64,000 bases of DNA. Source: Phycisphaerae bacterium (GTDB lineage: Bacteria > Planctomycetota > Phycisphaerae > UBA1845 > Fen-1342). The notes beneath the pieces were generated by a model, which saw only the letters and a list, made by a program, of their open reading frames with translations, was not told the DNA's origin and ran no database searches. Numbering within the stretch: position 1 is the stretch's first letter; each line of letters opens with the position of its first letter. Shown in pieces: positions 816-42,400 of this stretch. Made by a program: the position numbers and the translations under genes. The stretch spans positions 186,001 through 250,000 of the forward strand of contig JAJVHV010000001.1 of assembly GCA_022072445.1 (NCBI GenBank), in the 5' to 3' direction.

Positions 816-3263
816 CAACCCGTGACCGGCGCGCGGGTAGAACATGACGTCGAACTGCTTCCCGGCCCGCTGAAGCTGATCCACAAACTGCACCGAATTC
901 TGAAAGTGCACATTGTCGTCCATCAGACCGTGCATGATCAGCAGCCGCCCATGCAGGTTCTTGGCCAGCTTCGTCGGCGACGTCCGCTCGTAGCCCTGCG
1001 GGTTGTTCTGTGGCGTACGCATGTAGCGCTCGGTGTAGATCGTGTCGTAGCAGCGCCAATCGGTCACCGGCGCGCCCGCCACGCCGAGCTTGAACATCGT
1101 GCTGTTGGTGAGGCAGAAGCTGGTCTGAAAACCGCCATAGCTGTGCCCGTGAATGCCGATCCGCTCCGGATCGGCCGGGTAATTCGCGATCAGCCACCGC
1201 AGCCCGTCTTCCAGGTCCTGGCATTCGCTGACGCCCAGCCGCATGTAGTTCTGCCAGGCCGAGACGGCGCCCTGCCCGCTGCACGAGCGGTTGTCGCACA
1301 CCCACACCATGTAGCCCTGCTGGGCGAAATACTGCGAGTGCATCAGCCCGCCGCCCTGCCACGCGTTCCGTACGCTCGGCGCGTGCGGCCCCGAATACGT
1401 GTAGCTCCAGACCGGATACTTCTTCCCCTCCTCCATCCGCGGCGGCAGCACGAGCATCGCATTCATGATGTAGCCGTCGCGGGTCGGCACGCGCAGGAAC
1501 TTCACCTCGCCCAGCTCGAACTCGTGAATCGTCTTCACCTCGTTGGCGCTGATGACGCGCAGCAGCGAGCCGTCGCCGTGCCGCAAGTCGACGCGCGGCG
1601 CCGTCATGACGTTGCTGTACGTGTCGAAGAAGTATCGGAATCGCGGATCGAAATTGACGCGATGATCGAAGCCGGGCTCGGTCAGCCGCTCCAGCCCGCT
1701 GCCGTCGAGCTGCACGCGATACGCGTTCGACTGGATCGGGCTGTCGCGCGTGCCCGACAGATAAACCCAGCCCGCGGTCTCGTCGACGCCGTGCAGCGTG
1801 CGTGCCTCCCAGTCGCCACTCGTCACGCGCGTGATCAGTTCCCCGTCGCGCGCGTAATGATAAATGTGCCGCCAGCCGTCGCGCTGGCTCGACCACAGAA
1901 ACGACCCGTCGGCCAGCCAGTGCGGCGTGCCGATCACGTCCACCCACGCGGGCGAGTTCTCGCGGAACAGATTTCTTGACGCGCCGCTGACCGGGTCGGC
2001 CTCGTTCAGATCGAGCCAGGTCTGCTCGCGGTCCTGGACCTGGTACATCAGTTTCCCGTCAGGCGCCCAGCTCACCCGCACGATCAGGAATTCGCCGCCC
2101 TCGTACGCCGAGAGATCGACCCACGTCGTCACGCCCGTGTCAGCGCCGACGATGCCCAGCCGCGCCGTCGGGTTCTTGTCGCCCGCCTTGGGGTAGTGCG
2201 TCGCTTCGATCCGCAGGTGATAGGGCAGTTGGTCGGCGATGCTGTAGCGCGGCACGCCTTCTTCGTTAAGCTGGATGTATGCCAGCCGCTTGCCATCGGG
2301 ACTCCACCAATACGCCGGCCTGCCATGGCCGAACACTTCCTCGGCGTAGACCCAGTCAAGAACGCCGTTGCGCAAGTCCTGGCTGCCGCCGCTGGTCAGC
2401 CGCGTGAGTTTCCCGCCCGGCGCGTCGAAGTCGATGACGTGCAGGTCGTAGTCGCGCGCGAACGCCATGAACCGGCCGTCGGGGCTCAGCCGCGGCATGT
2501 CGAACGCGCCGTCGCCCACGTCGACCCGCCGCAGCACGGTCTCGCCATCCGCGTGCCGTGCCACCGCCGACTTCGCCGCCGCGCCGTCGATCCGCCCGGC
2601 GATCTCCGGCTCCTCCCACTCATCCCCGATAACGGCCTTGTCGTGCGGGTCGGCGGCGGCGGGCTCGAAGTCATAGACGTAGTAACACTTGTTGTGCCGG
2701 AAAACCGCCCGCGCGCGGTCCTCGGTCAGCATGCCCGGCTCGCGGGCGATGCGCGTCACGGCGTCGGCGTCGAAGTCGCCGCTGGCGCGCAGCGCCTGCT
2801 CGAAGCGCTCGACGTCGTACGGCGGAGTCGCCCGGTCGCTGACCGCGTCGACGCGCATTTGCATGCCGTCGCGGCGGTGCAGAAAGCTGCGGCCGTCGCT
2901 GAGCCACGCAAAGCCGGATTCGATGTGTCCATCGAAATCAACCCGGTTTTCCGGGCCGAACAGCATCTCGCGCGTCAGGCGTTTCAGCGCGGGTGCGCTC
3001 GACGACGCCGGCGCCGCGTCGTCCCCATCAGCCGGCTCGCTCGCGGCAGCCGCCGGTTCGCTTGTGGCAGCCTCCGGCGCTGGCACGACCTCCGACTCCT
3101 CCGTCGGACGCGATTGCCACGTGACCGCTTCCTCGTCCTCGACCGCCTGGCTCCCGGTTGCGGGCGCCGTCGTCGAGCTGGACGCTGTCGGCGGTTCGGT
3201 TTGCTCCTGCGGCGCGACGCCGAGTGCGACCAGCGTCATCAGCCAGATGATTGCAGTTGTCAT
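759..3263 (-). CDS. S9 family peptidase, dipeptidyl peptidase IV type, secreted
   Basis: An 834-residue protein with an N-terminal signal peptide (MTTAIIWLMTLVALGVA), a Pro/Ala/Glu-rich linker, a DPP-IV-type beta-propeller and a C-terminal alpha/beta-hydrolase domain. The double-glutamate motif that anchors the substrate amino terminus in DPP IV is present (DWVYAEEVFG, about residue 305). The catalytic triad is visible as Ser in GHSYGGF (about 707), Asp in LMDDNVHF (about 780) and His in RAGHGLF (about 814). Family members release X-Pro or X-Ala dipeptides, so a role in periplasmic or extracellular peptide use is expected. Length fits the family. The duplicated fragment of its 3' end lies just downstream. 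Confidence 0.95.
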   Translation of the reverse strand: MTTAIIWLMTLVALGVAPQEQTEPPTASSSTTAPATGSQAVEDEEAVTWQSRPTEESEVVPAPEAATSEPAAAASEPADGDDAAPASSSAPALKRLTREMLFGPENRVDFDGHIESGFAWLSDGRSFLHRRDGMQMRVDAVSDRATPPYDVERFEQALRASGDFDADAVTRIAREPGMLTEDRARAVFRHNKCYYVYDFEPAAADPHDKAVIGDEWEEPEIAGRIDGAAAKSAVARHADGETVLRRVDVGDGAFDMPRLSPDGRFMAFARDYDLHVIDFDAPGGKLTRLTSGGSQDLRNGVLDWVYAEEVFGHGRPAYWWSPDGKRLAYIQLNEEGVPRYSIADQLPYHLRIEATHYPKAGDKNPTARLGIVGADTGVTTWVDLSAYEGGEFLIVRVSWAPDGKLMYQVQDREQTWLDLNEADPVSGASRNLFRENSPAWVDVIGTPHWLADGSFLWSSQRDGWRHIYHYARDGELITRVTSGDWEARTLHGVDETAGWVYLSGTRDSPIQSNAYRVQLDGSGLERLTEPGFDHRVNFDPRFRYFFDTYSNVMTAPRVDLRHGDGSLLRVISANEVKTIHEFELGEVKFLRVPTRDGYIMNAMLVLPPRMEEGKKYPVWSYTYSGPHAPSVRNAWQGGGLMHSQYFAQQGYMVWVCDNRSCSGQGAVSAWQNYMRLGVSECQDLEDGLRWLIANYPADPERIGIHGHSYGGFQTSFCLTNSTMFKLGVAGAPVTDWRCYDTIYTERYMRTPQNNPQGYERTSPTKLAKNLHGRLLIMHGLMDDNVHFQNSVQFVDQLQRAGKQFDVMFYPRAGHGLFPHEHVIEMRDAFVLGNL

Positions 3264-3434
3264 GAGTCCGATCTCAGGTCACGTGCCAATCGAAAAACTC
3301 GACCCTGCCGGGTCCGCATATTCGTGCCTCGGACCCGCGCTCGCCGCGGGTTATCGCGCATTCGCCCGGCACGGTCAACCCATGCCACCAATCGCGCCCG
3401 GCGCGCCGCGCGCGCGGCGCTCCGCGCCGCGCAT

Positions 3435-3503
3435 CCGCGACCGCGCGATCCGAGCCGCGACCGCGCGATCCGAGCCGCGACCGCGCGATCCGAGCCGCGA
3501 CCG
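3435..3503. repeat. 20-bp tandem repeat, about 3.5 copies
   Basis: The unit CCGCGACCGCGCGATCCGAG occurs three times head to tail at 3435-3494, followed by a partial fourth copy. There are no spacers, so it is not a CRISPR. It lies in the upstream region of the divergent peptidase and secreted-propeller genes. Confidence 0.9.
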
Positions 3504-3509
3504 TAAGGG

Positions 3510-3579
3510 AGCGGTTTCTTAGCCCCGCGCAAGGATCGCTCGACCGTAGCTCGCACCCCCGCTCGGCTAAGAAACCGCT
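3510..3579. repeat. Inverted repeat, 15-bp arms
   Basis: The arms AGCGGTTTCTTAGCC (3510-3524) and GGCTAAGAAACCGCT (3565-3579) are perfect reverse complements around a 40-bp centre. They follow directly on the tandem repeat. This looks like a dispersed intergenic repeat rather than a terminator, since no T-run follows. Confidence 0.85.
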
Positions 3580-3625
3580 TGCTGACGCGCGCGGCTCGAT
3601 TCCAGCGCCCACGGTGGCACGATCT

Positions 3626-3654
3626 TGATCGCTCCCGGCGCCGCGAATATAATA
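3626..3654 (+). promoter_or_regulatory. Sigma70-like promoter for the secreted propeller gene
   Basis: A -35 box TTGATC (3626-3631) is followed by a 17-bp spacer and a perfect -10 box TATAAT (3649-3654). The predicted transcript start lies about 45-50 bases before the ATG at 3709. This is the best promoter match in the window. Confidence 0.65.
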
Positions 3655-3708
3655 GAAACCGCTGGGTCTCGGACCACTCAGTTTCTCTGCACCCCTAGGA
3701 GCACGCCG

Positions 3709-5991
3709 ATGTCTCAACGCGCCGGCAACGCACTCGTCCTGGCCGCATCACTCACGATGGTGTTTGCGGCCAGCGCTCACGAAGGCGACCCCAAGATTCG
3801 CGACCGGCAGCCGGCTTATACCGGACCCGGCTGGACCAAGGACGCCAATCACGGCGAGCCGCCCGCGCGGGCTTTCACCGCCAGCGGCGTCGAGTTGCTC
3901 GCCTGGCTGCCCGTCACGCAGTTCGGCGCGCAGAACGACTCGGCGAACAGTTGCTGGGGATACGTTTCGCCGGGCGGACATGAATACGCGATTATCGGCT
4001 TGTCCGATGGCACTGGCTTCGTGCGCGTGACCAATCCCGGCAGCCCGCAGATCGCCGGTTTCATCGCCGGCCCGGAGAGCCTGTGGCGCGACGTGAAGGT
4101 CCACGGCCAATATTGCTACGCCGTCAGCGAAGGCGGCAGCGGCATCCAAGTCATCAGCATGGCGAACATCGACAGCAACTCGGTGTCGCTTGTGCGGACG
4201 GTGACCACCGGCGGCACGACGGCGACGCACACGCTGGCGGTGAACAACGACACGGGCTATCTGTACCGCGCGGGCGGCGGTTCGTCCGCCGGCCTGCGGA
4301 TTTACAACCTGAATTCCGACCCGTCCAACCCGCAGTACGTCGGGCAGTGGACCGACCGCTACGTGCACGAGGCGCAGATCGTCAAATACACCTCGGGTAC
4401 GTACGCCGGCAAGGAAATCGCGTTTCTCTACTCCGATAACACCAGCGGCGGCGGACAGGCCTCGATCGACGTCGTCGAGGTGAACGTCGGCGGCGTCCCT
4501 GGGACTGTGTCGAATATCTCCCGCAAGATCTACACGGGCGGCCAGTTCTCGCACCAGGGATGGCTGTCGGCCGACAAGCGCTACATCTATCTCGATGACG
4601 AGCTGGACGAGGGCAACACGGTCAGCCTGACCACCACGCTCGTTTTCGACGCCCAGAACCTCTCCAGCCTGGTGCAATTGCCCGCGTTCACCAACACCTC
4701 CACCGCGATCGGCCACAACCTCTACGTCAAGGGCAACTGGATCTACGAGGCCAACTACACCAGCGGCCTGCGCATCTTCGACGCCACCAACCCCACCGCC
4801 CCCGTCGAGATCGCTTATTTCGACACCGACGCCGCGACCGACGCGCCGACCTTCAACCGCCTTTGGAACAACTATCCGTTCCTCCCGAGCGGCATTGTGA
4901 TCGGCAGCGACATCGAGCAGGGCCTGTTCGTCTGGCGCGTGACGTATGGCGCGCTCGACTTCGACTATCCCAACGGCCGCCCCGATACGATCAGCCCCGC
5001 GGGCCAGACGCTGCGCGTGCTGGTCGCTGCCGGCAGCGGCCATACGCTCGACGACGCCAGCCCGACGCTCTTCTACGACGCGGGCGCAGGCTTCGTCGCC
5101 GCTCCGATGACGCAAGTGTCGGCAGGTGTCTATGACGCCGAGTTTCCCGCGCTGCCCTGCGGAACCGTTGTGAACTACTACGTCTCCGCCGAGACCACCG
5201 GCGGCATCGTCAACACCGACCCGGGCAACGCGCCGACCGGCTTCTATTCAACCACGGTCGCCACCAGCGTCACACCCGTCTTCGACGACAACTTCGGCAC
5301 GAACAAGGGCTGGACCATCACCAACACCAGCGTCACCGACGGCGCCTGGGTGCGCGGCAGCCCGCTGACCGGCAACAATGGCGGCCGCGGCGACCCGGCC
5401 GACGACTACGACGGCAACAACGCCGCCTACGTCACGGGCAACAACGTCGATCAGGACCTCGACGGCGGCCCGACGCGGCTGGTCTCGCCGACGTTCATCC
5501 TCGACAGCAACCTGACCTACGTCGTCTCGTACGCGCGCTGGTTCACCAACGACGACGCCGACGCCGACCGGCTGACCGTCGAAGTCTCGAACAACAACGG
5601 CACGTCGTGGGTGCAGGTCGAAAACGTGGGCGGTGCTTCGGGCTGGGTGTTCCACTCGTTCAGCCTGAACGACTATGTCGCGCCGAGCGCCCAGGTCAAG
5701 CTGCGCTTCAGCGCCACCGACAACCCGAATAACTCGGTCACCGAAGCCGCCCTCGACGCCTTCGCCATCACCGCGATCGAATGCGACAGCGGCTACCCGC
5801 TCGGCGACATGAACTGCGACGGCAGCGTGAATGGATTCGACATCGACGGCTTCACGCTGGCCCTGACCGACCCGGCCGGCTACGCCTCCACCTATCCCGA
5901 CTGCGACATCAACCTCGGCGATACCAATAGCGACGGCTCGGTCAACGGATTCGACATCGACGAATTCGTGGCGATCCTCGGCGGCGGTTGA
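3709..5991 (+). CDS. Secreted choice-of-anchor B-like beta-propeller protein with dockerin tail
   Basis: A 760-residue protein. The ATG at 3709 was chosen because AGGAG sits just upstream and a signal peptide follows (MSQRAGNALVLAASLTMVFAASA). The first 420 or so residues resemble the choice-of-anchor B family: repeated LVIVD-like propeller units (GFVRVTNPGSPQIAGF, LRIFDATNPTAPVEIAYF). A central segment looks like a beta-sandwich (VFDDNFGTNKGWTITN onward). The C-terminus is a dockerin-like tail with two DxNxDGxxNxxD calcium loops, ending ILGGG. Eight genes at 49.8-63.9 kb share this tail. Exported; exact function unknown. Confidence 0.88.
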   Translation: MSQRAGNALVLAASLTMVFAASAHEGDPKIRDRQPAYTGPGWTKDANHGEPPARAFTASGVELLAWLPVTQFGAQNDSANSCWGYVSPGGHEYAIIGLSDGTGFVRVTNPGSPQIAGFIAGPESLWRDVKVHGQYCYAVSEGGSGIQVISMANIDSNSVSLVRTVTTGGTTATHTLAVNNDTGYLYRAGGGSSAGLRIYNLNSDPSNPQYVGQWTDRYVHEAQIVKYTSGTYAGKEIAFLYSDNTSGGGQASIDVVEVNVGGVPGTVSNISRKIYTGGQFSHQGWLSADKRYIYLDDELDEGNTVSLTTTLVFDAQNLSSLVQLPAFTNTSTAIGHNLYVKGNWIYEANYTSGLRIFDATNPTAPVEIAYFDTDAATDAPTFNRLWNNYPFLPSGIVIGSDIEQGLFVWRVTYGALDFDYPNGRPDTISPAGQTLRVLVAAGSGHTLDDASPTLFYDAGAGFVAAPMTQVSAGVYDAEFPALPCGTVVNYYVSAETTGGIVNTDPGNAPTGFYSTTVATSVTPVFDDNFGTNKGWTITNTSVTDGAWVRGSPLTGNNGGRGDPADDYDGNNAAYVTGNNVDQDLDGGPTRLVSPTFILDSNLTYVVSYARWFTNDDADADRLTVEVSNNNGTSWVQVENVGGASGWVFHSFSLNDYVAPSAQVKLRFSATDNPNNSVTEAALDAFAITAIECDSGYPLGDMNCDGSVNGFDIDGFTLALTDPAGYASTYPDCDINLGDTNSDGSVNGFDIDEFVAILGGG

Positions 5992-6073
5992 TCGCCGGCG
6001 AAATGCGGGAGCCGGCGCGCGATTGCCGCCGGCCCCTTCCTCGACAGGTCTTGCATGCGGCGCCGGCGCGGGT

Positions 6074-7186
6074 TCACTCCGCCGGCGCCGCGGCGTTGTC
6101 CGCCCCTTGCGCCCGCTCAGCCGGCAAGCCGCCCTGCGCGGCGGACTCAGCCGCTGTCGCCGATAACTCGACGGCGCCGCATCGTTCGCAGGCCGGCCCA
6201 TGCTGCTGCCCGATGGTCCGCCCACAGGCGTCGCACGTCGCCTGGCCCTTCCAGAACAGGGTCATGACGCGCATGATCGCCTGAAGCGGCCTGTCGTAGA
6301 TATCGGCAATGCCCACCTGGGCGCCCTCGACCGCGACCAACAGACCGATCGGCGTGAGCGTCATGCTGGTTCCCGGCGACTGAACGCGGCCGTAGCGGAT
6401 CGCCCGCACCTCACCCCACTTCAGCTCGCCCGTAACTTCGAACTGCGACAGTGCAAAGCCCGCGGGTGTCACCACCAGCTCCGACGCCAGACCCTTGCGC
6501 GCCACGTCGACCGGTCGGAAGGCGCTCGCGATCAGGAACGCCGCGCCGATGATCATGCCCCAGCCGGACAGCACGATGCCCGCTTCCTCGCGCACCGCGC
6601 CGCGCACACTGATCGCTGCGGCCAGCGACCCCGCCAGCAGCGCAAGCCCGACCGCCAGCCGCCGTTCGTTGCGCCACGGCAGCCTGAACCGTCGCGCCGC
6701 GTACGAATACACCTTGTCCGCCCCGAATATGTCGGCCGCCGCACGCCGATAGTGCTCCAGTGTGCCGCCTCCACGGCGCCCGCCGAATCCGACCCGCGCC
6801 AGCAACTGCTCCAGGACCAGCCCCGGAGGCAGGTTGAGCCGCGCCGGAACGTGTATGGCGTGACCCTCTTGCCGGACAGTCAGCTCGCCGACCGGCCGGC
6901 GATTGGGGCGCGTGCGGCCCGATCCGGCCCCTGCCGCCACGTGCACCACCGCCGGATAGTCGATCCGCTCCGGCACCGGTTGCTCCTGCACCAGCGCGTC
7001 GGGCTCGAAGCGGGCCGCGAAGCGCGGCCGTCGCGTCAGCAGCAGCGCCACGCCCAGCAGCGGAAGCGTGATCAGCGGCCAGCGCTCCCATGCGGCCGGC
7101 GCCACGTACGCCAGCACCAGCGCTGCTGCGGAGCCCAGCGCACAGACGATCGCTCCGATCGGCGGCCCGCGCCGCGCTTGAATCAA
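6074..7186 (-). CDS. Membrane protein with C-terminal zinc ribbon, unknown function
   Basis: A 370-residue protein. The TTG start at 7186 overlaps the stop of the upstream gene as TTGA, with GGAG just before it; longer upstream frames are out-of-frame readings of the protease gene. Two hydrophobic hairpins are visible, near residues 8-50 and 195-250. Near the C-terminus CDACG and CERCG pairs form a likely zinc ribbon, followed by an Ala-rich tail. It is the third gene of a translationally coupled trio with the CPBP protease. I recognise no family. Confidence 0.75.
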   Translation of the reverse strand: MIQARRGPPIGAIVCALGSAAALVLAYVAPAAWERWPLITLPLLGVALLLTRRPRFAARFEPDALVQEQPVPERIDYPAVVHVAAGAGSGRTRPNRRPVGELTVRQEGHAIHVPARLNLPPGLVLEQLLARVGFGGRRGGGTLEHYRRAAADIFGADKVYSYAARRFRLPWRNERRLAVGLALLAGSLAAAISVRGAVREEAGIVLSGWGMIIGAAFLIASAFRPVDVARKGLASELVVTPAGFALSQFEVTGELKWGEVRAIRYGRVQSPGTSMTLTPIGLLVAVEGAQVGIADIYDRPLQAIMRVMTLFWKGQATCDACGRTIGQQHGPACERCGAVELSATAAESAAQGGLPAERAQGADNAAAPAE

Positions 7187-34562: not shown

Positions 34563-37373
34563 ATGCGCTCACGTCATTCCACCGGGCTCGCCCTGTTCGC
34601 GCTGGCGGCCCTCACCCCGGCCGCGCTGCCGCAGACGCCCGCCGGCGACGCGTTTTTCTACCAGGGCAAGCTGAGCGACGGCGGACAGCCGGCCGACGGG
34701 CTTTACGATTTCCGATTCGGACTCTGGGACGCCCCCGCCGACGGCCAGACGTTCACCCAGGAAATCCTGGTCCGAAACGTCCCGGTCGTCGCCGGCGAGT
34801 TCGTCGTCGTGCTCAACTTCGGCGGCGAGCCGTTTGACGGCGACGCGCGCTGGCTGGAAATGTCGGTCCGGCCGACGGCGGGCGGCGACTGGACGCTGCT
34901 AGCGCCTCGGCAGCGCCTTCGCCCGACGCCCTACGCCCTGCGGGCCGCCATCGCGACGTCGATGCTCTGGTCGGGGCTCGCCGAGGTGCCTGCGGGATTC
35001 GCCGACGGCGTCGACGACGTCGGAAGCGGCGACGGTCACTCGCTCGACGCGTCGGACGGCTCGCCGACCGACGCGCTGCTGGTCGACGAGGATGGCCGCG
35101 TCGGGATCGGGACGGGCAGTCCGGCCGGGCGGTTGCACGTCGCGGGCGGACCGACGGTGCTGGATGGGCAGCTCATCGTCAACGTGATCGGCGGACCGCC
35201 GATGCTCGTCAGTTCCGCCGACATGGTGGCTAATCTGAACGCCGAGCGTGTGGGCGGGTACGTCGCGGCCGATTTTGCGCTCGACACGGAAGTGCTGTCG
35301 ATCGTAGCGGGAGCCGACGGCGCGGGCAGCGGTCTGGACGCCGACCTGCTCGACGGACAGGACAGCGCCGCGTTCGCTCCCGCCTCGCACACCCACGCGG
35401 GCGAGGCGATCGTGTCGGGCGTAGTGGCCGAGCAGCGGATCGACGTCGCCGTGGCGCGCGACAGCGAAGTACTGCCGCTGGTGCTGGCGGGCGACGGACC
35501 GGGCTCGGACATTGACGCCGACTTTCTCGACGGGCTGAACTCCAACGCGTTCGCGCCGGCGTTTCACGCGCACAGCGGCGCGGACATCACCAGCGGGACG
35601 GTCGGCGAGCCGCGAATCGACGCGTTGCTGGCGCGCGACAGCGAAATCCTGCCCGCGGTGCTGGCCGGCGACGGCGCCGGTAGCACGCTCGACGCCGACC
35701 TGCTCGACGGGCGCGATGCGACCACGTTCGCCAACACGGCACACACCCATTCTGGAAGCGACATCGTCAGCGGCACGGTCGCCGACGCCCGCATCGACGC
35801 TGCTATCGCGCGCGACAGCGAGATTCTGCCCGCGGTGCTGGCCGGCGACGGCGCGGGAAGCACGCTCGACGCCGACCTGCTCGACGGGCGCGACGCGTCC
35901 ACGTTTGCGAACGCCGCGCATACGCACTCTGGCGCTGAAATCGTCAGCGGCACGGTGGCCGACGGCCGCATCGACGCCGCCATCACGCGCGACGCGGAAG
36001 TCCTGCCGATCGTGCTGGCCGCCGATGGTCCGTCGAGCGGGCTGAATGCCGATCTGTTCGACAACCTCGACTCGAACGCATTTGTCAAACCCGGCGACGT
36101 CGTCGGCGGTGACCTGGCGGGCACGTTCATCAGCCCGACGGTCGACGCGCTCCAGGGCCGGCCCATCAGCCCGGCCGCACCGGACGCCGGCGACCTGCTC
36201 GCCTTTGATGGCATCAGTTGGGCGCCACAGCCTCCGGCAGCGGAGATGTGGACCGCGAACGGAGCGGACATTTTTTACACCGGCGGAAATGTCGGAATCG
36301 GCACCAGCACTCCGTCGGCGTTTGACCTGCAACTCGCCGGCCATTTCGGCCCCGACGCCTCTGACCAATTCGACCTCGGGAGCGCTGCGGCCATGTGGCG
36401 ACGGCAATATCTGGGCAATGGCGGGCTCGACTTCGGCAACGGAAACGCGGTCGTCGCCGTTGACGCAGCCACCGGGCGGCTTCAGCTTCGCGTGTTTAAC
36501 GCGGCGGCGGCGGTGCTGGACCAGGTGTCGGACCAGGAGTTCACATTCTCGGCGAGCGATCGCTGGCAATCGTTCACGCCGGCGATTACCGGCCGCATGA
36601 CCCAGCTCGACGTGGCCCGCTTCGACGGATCGAGCACGGTGACGTTGCGAATCTACGCGGGCGAGGGTACGGGCGGAACGCTGCTGCACACGCAGTCGGT
36701 TGTTCTGCCGGCGACAGGGTCGTGGAACAACATACCGCTTTCGACGCCCGTGCAGGTCAGCGCGGGCAGCAAGTACACCTGGCGGCTTCACCTGGGCGGC
36801 AGCTTTTTCATGCAGGGCAGCGCCAACGCGTACGCCGGCGGTCGGTCCGAGTCCGGCACCAGCTTTGACTGGGCCTTCCAAACGTACGTGAGCAGTGGGA
36901 CGAGCGAAGCGCTGTCGATCGCCAGCAGCGGTAACGTCGGCATCGGCACAAGCTCGCCCGCGGCCCTCCTGCACGTCAACGGCGCCGCCGCCAAGCCCGG
37001 CGGCGGGTCGTGGACCGACTCGTCGGACGAGCGACTCAAGCAGAAGATCCGCCCGTTGTCGGCGGCGCTCAGCCGGCTGCTGGCGCTGCGCGGCGTGACG
37101 TTCGAGTGGAAACAGCCGGAAAAGCACGGCGACCGGTGCGGCGAGCAGATCGGCATGCTGGCGCAGGAGGTCGAGCGTGTGTTTCCGGATTGGGTGGGCG
37201 TCGACCCCGACGGATACAAGACGCTCACGTTTCGCGGCTTCGAGGCGCTGGCGGTTGAGGCGTTGCGCGAGATGAATGACGAGAACGAGCGGCTGCGTCG
37301 AAAGCACGCGGAGCTGGAGGATCGCCTCGCGCGGCTGGAGCAGGAGCTGCGGCGGATCAGCGCGACGAAGTGA
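34563..37373 (+). CDS. Secreted fibre-like protein with S74 self-cleaving chaperone domain
   Basis: A 936-residue protein; ATG 34563 has GAGGAG upstream and a signal peptide (TGLALFALAALTPAALP). The mature N-terminus (FFYQGKLSDGGQPADGLYDF) is a domain found in many planctomycete exported proteins. Residues about 240-510 are five 59-residue repeats with an H-T-H-S-G-like motif. A 150-residue beta-sandwich-like region follows. The C-terminus (about 820-936) is a peptidase S74 domain (SDERLKQKIRPLS, then FEWKQPEKHG and IGMLAQEVERVFPDWV) and a coiled coil. S74 domains drive trimer folding of phage tail spikes and then cut themselves off. It probably forms a trimeric surface needle. Confidence 0.9.
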   Translation: MRSRHSTGLALFALAALTPAALPQTPAGDAFFYQGKLSDGGQPADGLYDFRFGLWDAPADGQTFTQEILVRNVPVVAGEFVVVLNFGGEPFDGDARWLEMSVRPTAGGDWTLLAPRQRLRPTPYALRAAIATSMLWSGLAEVPAGFADGVDDVGSGDGHSLDASDGSPTDALLVDEDGRVGIGTGSPAGRLHVAGGPTVLDGQLIVNVIGGPPMLVSSADMVANLNAERVGGYVAADFALDTEVLSIVAGADGAGSGLDADLLDGQDSAAFAPASHTHAGEAIVSGVVAEQRIDVAVARDSEVLPLVLAGDGPGSDIDADFLDGLNSNAFAPAFHAHSGADITSGTVGEPRIDALLARDSEILPAVLAGDGAGSTLDADLLDGRDATTFANTAHTHSGSDIVSGTVADARIDAAIARDSEILPAVLAGDGAGSTLDADLLDGRDASTFANAAHTHSGAEIVSGTVADGRIDAAITRDAEVLPIVLAADGPSSGLNADLFDNLDSNAFVKPGDVVGGDLAGTFISPTVDALQGRPISPAAPDAGDLLAFDGISWAPQPPAAEMWTANGADIFYTGGNVGIGTSTPSAFDLQLAGHFGPDASDQFDLGSAAAMWRRQYLGNGGLDFGNGNAVVAVDAATGRLQLRVFNAAAAVLDQVSDQEFTFSASDRWQSFTPAITGRMTQLDVARFDGSSTVTLRIYAGEGTGGTLLHTQSVVLPATGSWNNIPLSTPVQVSAGSKYTWRLHLGGSFFMQGSANAYAGGRSESGTSFDWAFQTYVSSGTSEALSIASSGNVGIGTSSPAALLHVNGAAAKPGGGSWTDSSDERLKQKIRPLSAALSRLLALRGVTFEWKQPEKHGDRCGEQIGMLAQEVERVFPDWVGVDPDGYKTLTFRGFEALAVEALREMNDENERLRRKHAELEDRLARLEQELRRISATK
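35280..36095 (+). repeat. Five 177-bp in-gene tandem repeats
   Basis: The period is exactly 177 bp (59 codons), with copies starting at 35280, 35457, 35634, 35811 and 35988; the last diverges after about 36 codons. Copies three and four are the closest in DNA and encode an identical run of 27 residues. Each full copy encodes a D-x-D-x-L-D-G-x-D segment and an HxHxG motif. Confidence 0.92.
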
Positions 37374-37432: not shown

Positions 37433-39385
37433 TCAACGCGTCAGCGCGATGAACGGCTCGACGTCGAGCCCATCGACGCTGCCGTCGCAGCTCAGGTCCG
37501 CGGCCTGCCGCCTGCACTTCGGAAACGCCGTCGCATAGCCCGCCGGGTCGGTCAGCGCCAGCAGAAACGGATCGACATCCGCGGCATTCACGAGGCCGTC
37601 GCCGTTGAGGTCGCCCAGCAGCAGCGGCTGAACCGGCGTAGCATCCACGGCGAACTGCTGCACGATCTGCGGCACACGCCCCACGACCTCCGACGGATCG
37701 GCGTTCAATTCGTCGGCGTCGTACCAGTCGATGCCGTAGGTCGTCACCGTCAAGCGTTGCGTCGCGGCGTCGATCTCGAATTCACTCCAGCCATACGTGT
37801 GCAGCGAGGCCCACTGCCCGGTCAGAAGTTCAAACGGAATGCCCGATCCTTCGAGTCCGATCGAATCGTAGCCCCAGCGATCGAGCAGTGCGTTCATCGC
37901 GTCGATGATCAGCCGATCCTTCCCGTCGCGGTCTCGACACTCGTGCAGCAGAGCAAAGAGCGGCCCGAAAACGGGAATCGCCGACACGTATTGCACCAGC
38001 GTCGGGCCGAACGGGGCGGCGTAGGCGACTGAGCCGGTGGAAATCTCCCACGTCCCCGTGGCAACCTGCGGGCCGCCCGCTTCGAGCGCGTACGTCAGGT
38101 TGTTGACGATTGTGCAGTGAATGTCGGCGGTGACGAAAACCACGTTGGCGATGCCGTGTTCGTCGATGAACCGCAGCAGGCGGCTGCGCTCGTCGGCGTA
38201 GCCCTCGAAGCGATCCTCGCCCGCCACGGGCCCGAGATTCTGGATCGGCTCGGGCACAAGCACAAACTTCCACGTCACGCCGTCATAGTGCGCCCGCAGC
38301 AGATCGCGCGTCAGCTCGTCGAACTGCGCCTGGCCGAGCATCGTCCGCCCCGGCGCCGCGACCGCCCGCTGCCAGCGCGCCGGAGCGAAAATGTCGCCCA
38401 GTCCCGCCGCGATCGGCGCGTCGCGGAACGAGCGCGCGTCGAGCACCAGTAGCACGGCGTCGTCGCCGTATTCTGCGCGCCGGTAGAGCTTTCGCTTGCC
38501 CGAGGTGCGCGGGTCGCCGGTCTCTGGGTAGAACTCCTCGCGGATCGGGTGATGCTCATGAAATGCCTGCAACCCGTTGGCATAGAGCGCCGAGTCGTTG
38601 ATGAATTCGCCGTATGGATCGAAGCGCGGGTCGTCGGCCGGCGCAGCGCCGCCGGAGAAATCGTTGGTCACCTCGTGGTCGTCGATCGTCGCCAGCCAGG
38701 CGGTGGAGGCGCGGGCCGCGGCCAGCGAACCGATGCCGAAGCGCTCGTCATAGACTTCGGCGTGCTTCTGCCGGAAGTCCGCCAGAGTCTCGCATTGCGG
38801 CTTAGGCACCAGCGGCGAGGCGACATCGGCGTAAATCGTGTCGCCCAGCGCGACGAACACGTCCAGCTCGCGCGCGGCAACGTTGGAGACGGACGGATAG
38901 GGACTCAACTCGCCGCGCCAGTCGCCCGAGACGCCGAAACGCAGGCCGCGCCGCTGCCCGGTCGGCGCCGGGGTCGTGAAACGGCCGTGCGCCACGCGGC
39001 CGGCGGCGTCGGTCGCACTGTACTCATACGCCGTCGCGGCGTTCAACCCCGAGATTTCGAGCCTCGCCGGAACGAGCGGATCGGACACGGTCAGTGTCGC
39101 CGATTGGGCAGTACCCGACTCGGCCGCCCACACGAACTCTACGGCCCCGAGATTGGCGGTGCTGGCGAGCAGGACGGCCGATTCCCGCGTTACATCACCG
39201 GTCGCGACATGCAGGTGCTCGACGTACGAATCATCCGCGACAATCGTTCCGGACTGCGCGGCGGGCGGGATGACGGCGGGTGGGAGCGCAGCGCTTGAAT
39301 GCGTGCCGAGAGCCGCGAGTAGCAGCCCCGCGCCGGCGCCGCGGCAGCGCGAGCGCCACGCTCGAGCGGTCACATCACGAGCCAT
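37433..39385 (-). CDS. PhoD-like alkaline phosphatase with degenerate dockerin tail
   Basis: About 650 residues from ATG 39385 (39406 is an alternative). A signal peptide (GAGAGLLLAALGTHSSAA) leads to a fibronectin-like purple-phosphatase N-domain, then the PhoD metallophosphatase core: FGVSGDWRGE, FVALGDTIYAD, ATIDDHEVTNDFSG, VLLVLDARSFRD, VTADIHCTIVNN and ISTGSVAYAAP. PhoD enzymes are Ca/Fe phosphodiesterase-monoesterases used for phosphate scavenging. The tail (GDLNGDGLVNAADVDPFLLAL...SCDGSVDGLDVEPF) is dockerin-like but ends ALTR instead of LLGG. It follows the mannosidase gene by 32 bp. Confidence 0.9.
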   Translation of the reverse strand: MARDVTARAWRSRCRGAGAGLLLAALGTHSSAALPPAVIPPAAQSGTIVADDSYVEHLHVATGDVTRESAVLLASTANLGAVEFVWAAESGTAQSATLTVSDPLVPARLEISGLNAATAYEYSATDAAGRVAHGRFTTPAPTGQRRGLRFGVSGDWRGELSPYPSVSNVAARELDVFVALGDTIYADVASPLVPKPQCETLADFRQKHAEVYDERFGIGSLAAARASTAWLATIDDHEVTNDFSGGAAPADDPRFDPYGEFINDSALYANGLQAFHEHHPIREEFYPETGDPRTSGKRKLYRRAEYGDDAVLLVLDARSFRDAPIAAGLGDIFAPARWQRAVAAPGRTMLGQAQFDELTRDLLRAHYDGVTWKFVLVPEPIQNLGPVAGEDRFEGYADERSRLLRFIDEHGIANVVFVTADIHCTIVNNLTYALEAGGPQVATGTWEISTGSVAYAAPFGPTLVQYVSAIPVFGPLFALLHECRDRDGKDRLIIDAMNALLDRWGYDSIGLEGSGIPFELLTGQWASLHTYGWSEFEIDAATQRLTVTTYGIDWYDADELNADPSEVVGRVPQIVQQFAVDATPVQPLLLGDLNGDGLVNAADVDPFLLALTDPAGYATAFPKCRRQAADLSCDGSVDGLDVEPFIALTR

Positions 39386-39417
39386 TACTTCCGCTGTGCA
39401 CCCCATCGCCGGCGCGC

Positions 39418-42400
39418 TCAGCGACGCACGCGGAACGTGCGGATTTCGTGCGGCTTGAAGTCGGCGCTCAGGGTGCGCGCCGAGAGCGTGACAGGCCGCG
39501 CGCCCTTCATCTCGCGCTCGATCAGATCGTTCTCCGCGGCGCTGCGGGCATCGAAGCCGAGCGTGAACGTCGCTTGTGCCGGCTGGCCGGCGCACTCGTA
39601 CGCGCGAATGATCACGTCATCGCCGTCCTCAGACAGCTTGAGCGAAGTCACGATGATGTTCGCCGGCTCGGCCGACAGTCCGCACCACGCCCAGACGCTG
39701 CCGCTCAGGCCGCGCGGCGCCGCCCGCCCACCCGCGGCTCCGTTCACGCGTGCCGGTTCGCTGGGCGGCACGTCCATCGAAATCTTGCCCACGGACGAGT
39801 TGCCGTCCTGATCGACGACCACCTGAAGCGGCTTGTTGAATTCCCAGCCGGCGCGGACCAGCGCGGCGCGGTCGGCGGCGCCATCCATCGGCACGACCGA
39901 GTATCGGATGTGATGCACGCCAACGTCGGGAACCGGATCAGGTTCGTACGACGCCCGCAGGAGCGTGAGCCGAATCGCGCCGTCCTTCACGTCGTACGCG
40001 TGCTTGCAGTCGTTCAGCACCGCGACGGTCCGACTCCCGCCGGTCACAGCGCACCACTTCAGCGCCGCGGATTGCTTCCCGTTGGTCTTGCGGCTGATGT
40101 CGCCGAACGGGATTTCATGCAGTGCGTTGTCGGTCTGGATATCGGTCGGAATGACGACGCTGAGCATCGGTCCGCCGTCGTTGGCGTTTCCGACCTGCTG
40201 CCAATCGACGACCGTCTCGTAGTCGGCGCGGGTCTGATAGCAGTAGCGCGTGATGGTCTGTGTGATGGTCGACTTGTCGAAACGGTATGTTTCGCGGATG
40301 CGCGTGCGGGCGCCGGAGGCTTCGAGCACTTCGGTTTTCTCGGGCTTGTCGAGCGTGATCGTCCGCTCGATGGGTCCGAGTTCCCATGCGCTCATGCCAT
40401 GCGGCTTTTCGTGCTGGACCTGAAAATACACGGCCGCCGGCTTGTCCGTCCGAATCGGCACATCGCGGGCCGTCGCGGGATCGATCGCCGCCGGCGCCTG
40501 GCGCTCGGGGGCGACGGGCGTGCCGTCGGGCGACGAAAGCGGCAGCGCGATGACCTGAAACGCGCGCCAGCCGCAACCCTGCACAGGGCCGGTATGAAAG
40601 CAGATGCGCAGCTCGGTCGTTTCGCCATCGACGCGGCGTTCCAGCACGTGCGGCGTCGACGGTTTGTCGTCGCTGCTGCTCAACGCGACGCGCTCGGTGG
40701 CGGCCGGGACGCGCACCACGGCTTCGACCCACTGGCCGCGCGTCCAGGCGAGCGGGTTGAAGACGTAGATGATCGGACTGTCGGCGCGGATTCCGGACGC
40801 GGCGAGCAACTTGCGGCGGGCGTCATGCAGGATTTGCGAGCCGCGCTTCGCGATCTGCTCGTACATCTCATAACTGTATTCGGCCGACTTGTGGATGAAC
40901 GACCCGGGCAGCGTGTCGTGATGGTGGTTCCAGCACACGTCGCGCCACATGTTCTCAAAGTCGGCGCGCGGATAGACAAAGCGCTCGGCGGACGGAGCAG
41001 CGGCCGGTGCCGCGGCGGTCGTCGACTCTCCGGCGCCGATCGCCGCCAGGGTGCCAAATACCTCGGCGCACTCGAGCAGCATCTCGCTGTCGCGGTTGTA
41101 TTTCTTGATGCGGCTATGGGACGTGTAGCAGCCTTCGAACACGGGATTCAGCTCGTCGCGGATGACCGGGATTTTCGCCGGGTCGACCTGCTCGGCGAGC
41201 TTCTTGAAGAACTCGGACGCGGTGCTGAACTTGATGGTGGGCCACAGGCCGCGCTTGCGCATGGCCAGGGCGGCTTCGATGTACTCGCGCGTCGGGCCGC
41301 CGCCGTGGTTGCCGACGCCATAGACCATCAGGTGTTCCCAGACGCCGTGCTGGGTGACGAATTTGGCGAGTTCGCGGACCTTCTCGTCGTTGACGACGTC
41401 GTTGTACCAGCCGCCGGTGGCCGGTTCTTCGAAGGCGAGCACGCGTGATCCGTCGGGTCCTTCCCACCAGAAGAGCGGGACGTTTTTTCCGGCGCGGCAG
41501 AAGTAGTAGTAGTCGATGCCGGATTTTTTGAGGATCTGCGGCAGGGTCCAGGTGTGTCCGAAGGTGTCGGGCTCCCAGCCGACGGTGCAGGTGCGGCCGA
41601 ATTTCTGCTGGAAGTAGCGCTGGCCGTAGAGCAGGTGCCGGACGTGCGACTCGGGCGAGATCATGTTGGTGTCGCCCTCGCACCAGCGCCCGCCGACCAG
41701 CTCCCAGCGGCCGGCGGCGACGTATTCCTGTATTCCCTTGAAAATCTCGGGATGGTGTTTTTCGGTCGTTTCGTAGAGCGTGGCGCTGCTCTGGCTGAAG
41801 GTGAAGTCGGGGTACTCCTTCATGAACTTGAGGGCCTGGCCGAACGTCTCGGGAATGATCTGCTTGACCGTTTCGTCCCAGGTCCAGAGCCACTGCAAAT
41901 CGATGTGCGCGTGGCCGACCAGGTGGCCGGTGAACTTCTGCATGACGGGGTGGGCGTGTCCGAGACGGTGCCGCGCCTGGTGCAGCGACTCGAAGTAGGC
42001 CGCCGTATCACCCGCGGCGAACGCGGCCAGGTCTTCGGACTTTGCAACGGCGTCGAGCTCGGCCAGCAGCTTGTCGTCCTTGGCGGTAGCGGCGAGCTGC
42101 CGGGCGACGTCGAGCTCGCTGCGGAACTGCTGCTGGGCGTCGTGCATCTCGGCGGCGCGTTTGGCCGCGTCGAGATACAGGCCCAGCTTTTCCTCGCTCA
42201 CGCTGGCCTCGCGCGGAACGGCGGTAAGGAAGACGGTCCGGCTGTAGCCGTCGGTCTGACGCTGCCGGAATTCCGGCGCCTTGCCGTTCTCGTAGATGCT
42301 CAGCCGCGTGGCACCATCGTGCGTCACGCGGATGTTGTCGAGAAGCTGCGAATGCCGCCCCGGCTCGTCACCCTCGAACACCACGTTCCAGCGGGTGGTG

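Follow-up and report, generated by a model that had tools for sequence, protein, structure and literature searches.

Gene organization of the putative fibre locus

The window analyzed here, a stretch of 64,000 nucleotides from a Phycisphaerae bacterium, carries an open reading frame on the forward strand at 34563–37373, which encodes 936 amino acids followed by a stop codon. A GAGGAG motif sits a few bases 5' of its ATG. The first 24 residues, MRSRHSTGLALFALAALTPAALPQ (34563..34634, +), were read by eye as a putative Sec signal peptide, and a leader of like kind is present in homologous N-terminal domains. Judged from this signal-like N-terminus, the protein is putatively secreted. An earlier sequence-only reading of the same DNA had described a reading frame with repeats, an S74 domain, and a coiled coil, and all of these were found in this gene.

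The gene neighbors encode a MurG-like glycosyltransferase, an NHL-repeat protein, an acetyltransferase, a glutaredoxin-like protein, PhoD, and GH38. They make up a chromosomal context of ordinary housekeeping genes. No prophage signs were found among the neighboring genes read, and a prophage origin was rejected on this gene context. The PhoD-like phosphatase, at 37433–39595 on the reverse strand, has a dockerin-like C-terminal tail (GDLNGDGLVNAADVDPF). Its true start is probably downstream of the listed one because the listed reading frame overlaps that of GH38. Elsewhere in the window, a perfect 20-bp tandem repeat of 3.5 copies was observed at 3435–3503.

N-terminal domain and VGIGT segments

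The leader is followed by a domain, FFYQGKL...PRQRLRPTPYAL (34635..35012, +), which was identified through its homologues and, via these relatives, through the NCBIfam family Bdello_MAT_N, and which is presumed to be the presentation domain proximal to the cell surface. Among the proteins fetched with the repeat unit described below, 28 from bacteria contained a homologue of this domain and spanned many phyla, while the 80 viral loci contained none. Bdello_MAT_N was matched by 19 of the 26 aligned members, with a best E of 3.2e-14. As the score of the present protein itself was weak (15.8–18.4 bits, with E 0.0015 at 18.4 bits) and lay below the cut-off of 60, the domain is called MAT-like and not a formal member of the family. 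A distant relationship with the N-domain of the Bdellovibrio mosaic adhesive trimers (MATs) is supported through these relatives, and membership in the MAT superfamily is plausible. The genome encodes some eleven proteins that contain this N-domain and five S74 proteins. In L047 (contig C4, 2401–5472, reverse strand), the N-domain is combined with long YadA-head-like GGGxxNxA repeats and S74. A related genome, G004, has a large fibre repertoire: S74 was matched 21 times, and N-domain proteins are numerous, several of them bearing DUF4082-like sandwiches in tandem.

Three VGIGTxxP beta-helix segments were located on the forward strand at 35100..35159 (residues 180–199), 36291..36350 (residues 577–596), and 36936..36995 (residues 792–811), the third lying directly before the S74 domain. 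The first and third match the solved Bdellovibrio MAT tip chains 8ojn and 8ond, while the second was placed by motif position. Using phmmer, this homology to the MAT crystal structures was detected with E values of 2e-5 for 8ond and 5e-4 for 8ojn.

Tandem 59-residue units

A period of 177 nt was detected at 35406–36113 using Tandem Repeats Finder, with scores (499 and 573) far exceeding chance, and a second repeat finder agreed. In the protein, five tandem units of 59 residues lie in register at residues 235–529. The first four (35265..35972, +; residues 235–470), delimited by repeat finding and by the homology of their HxH segment to the iron site of the R1/R2 pyocin fibres, carry HTH276, HAH335, HTH394, and HTH453 as HxHxG motifs, spaced by exactly 59 residues. 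The fifth and terminal unit (35973..36149, +; residues 471–529) begins like units 1–4, ends in GDVVGGDLAGTF, and has no HxH. Since it shares 59% amino acid identity with the last unit of C17, a paralogue encoded elsewhere in this genome, it was regarded as a distinct specialized unit and not as a product of decay. The repeats reported in the sequence-only reading, of 177 bp with HTH or HAH in an HxHxG motif, were thus confirmed as five units, four with the motif and the fifth without.

Units 3 and 4 are identical at 85% of nucleotides and 88% of amino acids, and their dN/dS of 0.16 shows that they diverged under purifying selection. Moreover, as the two units differ mostly at synonymous sites, the repeats are maintained as protein. 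The AlphaFold monomer model of the repeats was uninformative (pLDDT 45), and this failure is itself no evidence for any fold. The repeat region alone gave no PDB match using phmmer; the pyocin fibres were matched by profiles only.

HxH motif as a probable metal site

A profile of the HxH segment, built from this protein and its relatives, matched the R1 pyocin fibre 6cl5 at E=1.6e-6 and the R2 pyocin fibre 6cl6 at E=4e-4. In the aligned stretch, ATFPPSxHNHDxxxxTSGILPLAR, the HxH falls at the iron-ligand position with conserved flanks. The histidines of the R1 and R2 fibres form a six-His octahedral iron site, in which they face inward around the iron (PMC6116203). The shaft of the R-pyocin fibre has little secondary structure and consists of helix-plus-turn units with interdigitated chains (PMC6116203); a pyocin-like shaft of this kind would fit the failed monomer model of the repeats.

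Of 170 distinct related repeat units in which both His columns were aligned, 94 had both histidines, 70 had neither, and six had one, a count drawn from related sequences via a profile alignment, so that relatedness inflates the statistics. A site with two ligands would be expected to give just such a both-or-neither pattern. The earlier proposal that HxH is a metal-site motif is supported by homology, with the shaft of the R1/R2 pyocin fibres as the best solved relative, and the HxH repeats of the shaft are most likely iron sites that would hold three chains together.

The DADxLDG core of the repeat is far better conserved than HxH, many related units are devoid of any HxH, and the HxH of T4 gp12 held zinc after reconstitution (PMC6116203). 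These points would suit a MAT-like trimeric S74 fibre in which HxH is without metal, or holds zinc or another ion loosely, and acts as a shaft-packing element common to phage fibres. However, the gain or loss of the histidines as a pair and the binding of iron at the HxH position in the closest solved sequence relative speak against it, and this reading was considered rather unlikely.

Putative beta-sandwich tip and S74 domain

A DUF4082-like beta-sandwich, the putative adhesive tip, was delineated at 36471..36902 (+; about residues 637–780) from a sub-threshold Pfam match, homologues, and the structural model. The Pfam DUF4082 match in this protein, at residues 671–745, lies under the cut-off. 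The family was matched by five of 12 homologues (best E 1e-9), and kinship with DUF4082 is supported by relatives from the paralogue and from genome G004, the best of them at E 1e-9. The strands were predicted at a pLDDT of about 60–72 using AlphaFold2. A profile of the sandwich gave no match in the PDB, and as the fold matches were generic (Z below 8), no ligand class is claimed. Because this domain before S74 looks like an adhesive tip, the label of needle given in the sequence-only reading fits poorly.

Among solved MAT tips with a similar layout, some bind glycans of foreign cells (PMC10769870). This argues against a reading in which S74 is only a folding aid and the protein, in place of an adhesin directed at other cells, is an extracellular matrix fibre whose sandwich binds the polysaccharide of its own organism. 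Nevertheless, the function of the DUF4082 family that the sandwich resembles is unknown and the PhoD and GH38 genes adjoin, and a matrix fibre was accorded a small but real share of the probability.

The Peptidase_S74 intramolecular chaperone domain and the C-terminal coiled coil were assigned to 37023..37370 (+; residues 821–936) from Pfam and the model. The Pfam match covers residues 821–878 (E=2e-15; 57 bits, cut-off 22), and the catalytic motif SDERLK (Ser821...Lys826; 37023..37040, +) has a Ser and a Lys that are invariant in a 22-row alignment. A profile of the S74 relatives matched the solved chains 6f45 (S16 long tail fibre), 8jov (phage tail fibre), 7dc3 (MyRF ICA), 8hqz (T5 L-shaped fibre), and 3gud (a phage neck appendage, which we take to be that of phi29). 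Those of S16, T5, MyRF, and phi29 were solved as trimers. Using AlphaFold2, the S74 domain and coiled coil were modeled mostly at a pLDDT of 80–99, with the coiled coil as a confident long helix. The best match of the S74 model was MyRF ICA 7dc3 (Foldseek E 3e-4, Z 9.6, rmsd 4.3 over 114 residues), and the predicted fold also matches the K1F chaperone. The family match and the intact SDERLK motif agree with the S74 chaperone and protease claimed at the outset.

Bd3182, a Bdellovibrio S74 MAT, trimerises and self-cleaves (PMC10769870). By analogy with its S782, self-cleavage is predicted just before Ser821 (PMC10769870), and the S74 end piece would probably be released after folding or assembly. 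The claim of a trimeric fibre likewise draws support from homology.

Paralogues and distribution

The C17 paralogue (L045 3728–6322, reverse strand) is 57% identical over residues 360–930 of the present protein. It has a lipoprotein-like leader, then collagen-like repeats (Pfam Collagen E 1e-16), two HxH units and an HxH-less terminal unit, the beta-sandwich, and S74. Collagen forms a triple helix. That the tip also occurs on a stalk of this kind thus suggests, as an independent line of support, that the tip is trimeric. The repeat number, which had been proposed to be free to vary, does vary between paralogues in one genome, with four HxH units in one and two in the other. Moreover, with the MAT-N-like domain and the collagen-stalk paralogue, both of which had been overlooked, the fibre is less isolated than was assumed.

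Behind its coiled coil, the C17 paralogue terminates in a hydrophobic helix followed by RRR. A membrane anchor at this C-terminal end would lie on the piece set free by S74 cleavage, an arrangement reminiscent of MyRF. Two further S74 proteins of the same genome, L046 (contig C43) and L048 (contig C21), have lipoprotein-type leaders and collagen-like GXY stalks.

The repeat unit was found in bacteria belonging to several phyla, with members of the Caldilineaceae, Pontiellaceae, Hydrogenedentota, Desulfobacterales, Schekmanbacteria, and further groups, and the exact spacing of 59 recurs in L059, L060, L062, L071, and L073. In the case of L062 (Hydrogenedentota), the order is also the same, with the N-domain, two HxH units 59 residues apart, and S74. 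Within the class of the host, the HxH unit was present in this genome only of 198 and absent from the 197 others. Acquisition of the HxH unit by transfer is possible; the GC and GC3 of the gene match those of neighboring genes and give no sign of a recent date.

Relatives of the unit are numerous in viral contigs, and phage tail fibres share the unit. In one viral contig (L111, IMGVR_UViG_3300048589_000333), two adjacent phage reading frames, 1810–4260 and 4194–6935, have 31 HxH motifs each, mostly 10–11 residues apart, and possibly encode very metal-rich fibres. Although this viral abundance and the strongest PHROG matches, which were phage tail and baseplate proteins, could point to a protein that belongs to a prophage, a tailocin, or an extracellular contractile injection particle and not to the cell surface, such an origin was judged highly improbable given the non-phage neighbors, the signal-like leader joined to an N-domain that all 80 viral loci lack, and the lack of any tblastn match to the repeat region among 50,697 phage records.

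Proposed structure and assembly of the fibre

The product of the gene is probably a secreted, homotrimeric, MAT-like adhesive fibre of the cell surface, which would be matured by S74 and have a shaft stapled by metal at its HxH motifs. The N-terminal domain would present the fibre at the cell surface, and the five 59-residue units would form a shaft of helix-plus-turn elements resembling that of the R-pyocins. At each HxH unit, six histidines, two from each chain, would bind a single buried metal ion, which would most likely be Fe(II). With four HxH units, up to four metals are proposed to staple each trimer. The beta-sandwich near the tip would be the likely ligand-binding part. The S74 domain would template trimer folding and then cut itself off before Ser821, leaving a mature fibre of about residues 25–820.

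In broader terms, it is a tentative suggestion that bacteria build surface fibres in which iron staples are arrayed in tandem and differ in number, and that they exchange a stapled, S74-matured tip between MAT-like N-domain carriers and collagen-like lipoprotein carriers. The finding would place MAT-like adhesive fibres far outside Bdellovibrio and join them to the metal-stapled shaft of phage and pyocin fibres. The collagen-like stalk that bears this tip in the C17 paralogue would represent a naturally occurring domain swap from one trimeric stalk to another. Provided that the iron sites are real, the assembly of an extracellular fibre would be tied to iron, and iron supply could limit or tune it.

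Comparison with known systems

S74 fibres of bacteria and HxH fibres of phages had been described before (PMC10769870, PMC11705849), which the sequence-only reading had likewise overlooked. The S74 chaperones of endosialidase K1F (3gw6), the T5 L-shaped fibre, the phi29 appendage, and MyRF ICA (7dc3) share the fold and the catalytic Ser/Lys motif with this protein, whereas the attached fibres differ and MyRF is eukaryotic.

The T4-type gp37 tip and the multi-HxH phage fibres, such as that of Alteromonas phage R22Y (PMC11705849), similarly have several HxH per chain, with iron proposed or shown, and many phage fibres carrying this repeat also end in S74. However, they have no MAT-N-like domain and a different HxH spacing, and T4 gp37 was not recovered among the profile-search matches. 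The R1/R2 pyocin fibres (6cl5, 6cl6; PMC6116203) are alike in the HxH iron-site segment with the flanks F..xHxH....TSG....R, in the fibre shaft, and in the beta-sandwich tip. In contrast to the four iron sites per trimer predicted here, they have one, and they are tailocin fibres whereas the present protein is putatively secreted; no S74 match to 6cl5 or 6cl6 was seen.

MATs are located on the surface of the predator (PMC10769870), while the host of this gene is not known to be predatory. The N-domain of the present protein lies below the NCBIfam cut-off, and the protein differs further in its 59-residue HxH repeats and in the DUF4082-like sandwich before S74; the text of the MAT paper makes no mention of histidine (PMC10769870). 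The protein resembles the Bdellovibrio S74 MATs, such as Bd3182 (PMC10769870), in its putative leader, its MAT-like, beta-rich N-domain of about 130 amino acids, its predicted long fibre, its VGIGT-type beta-helix segments, and its C-terminal S74 domain with SDxxxK.
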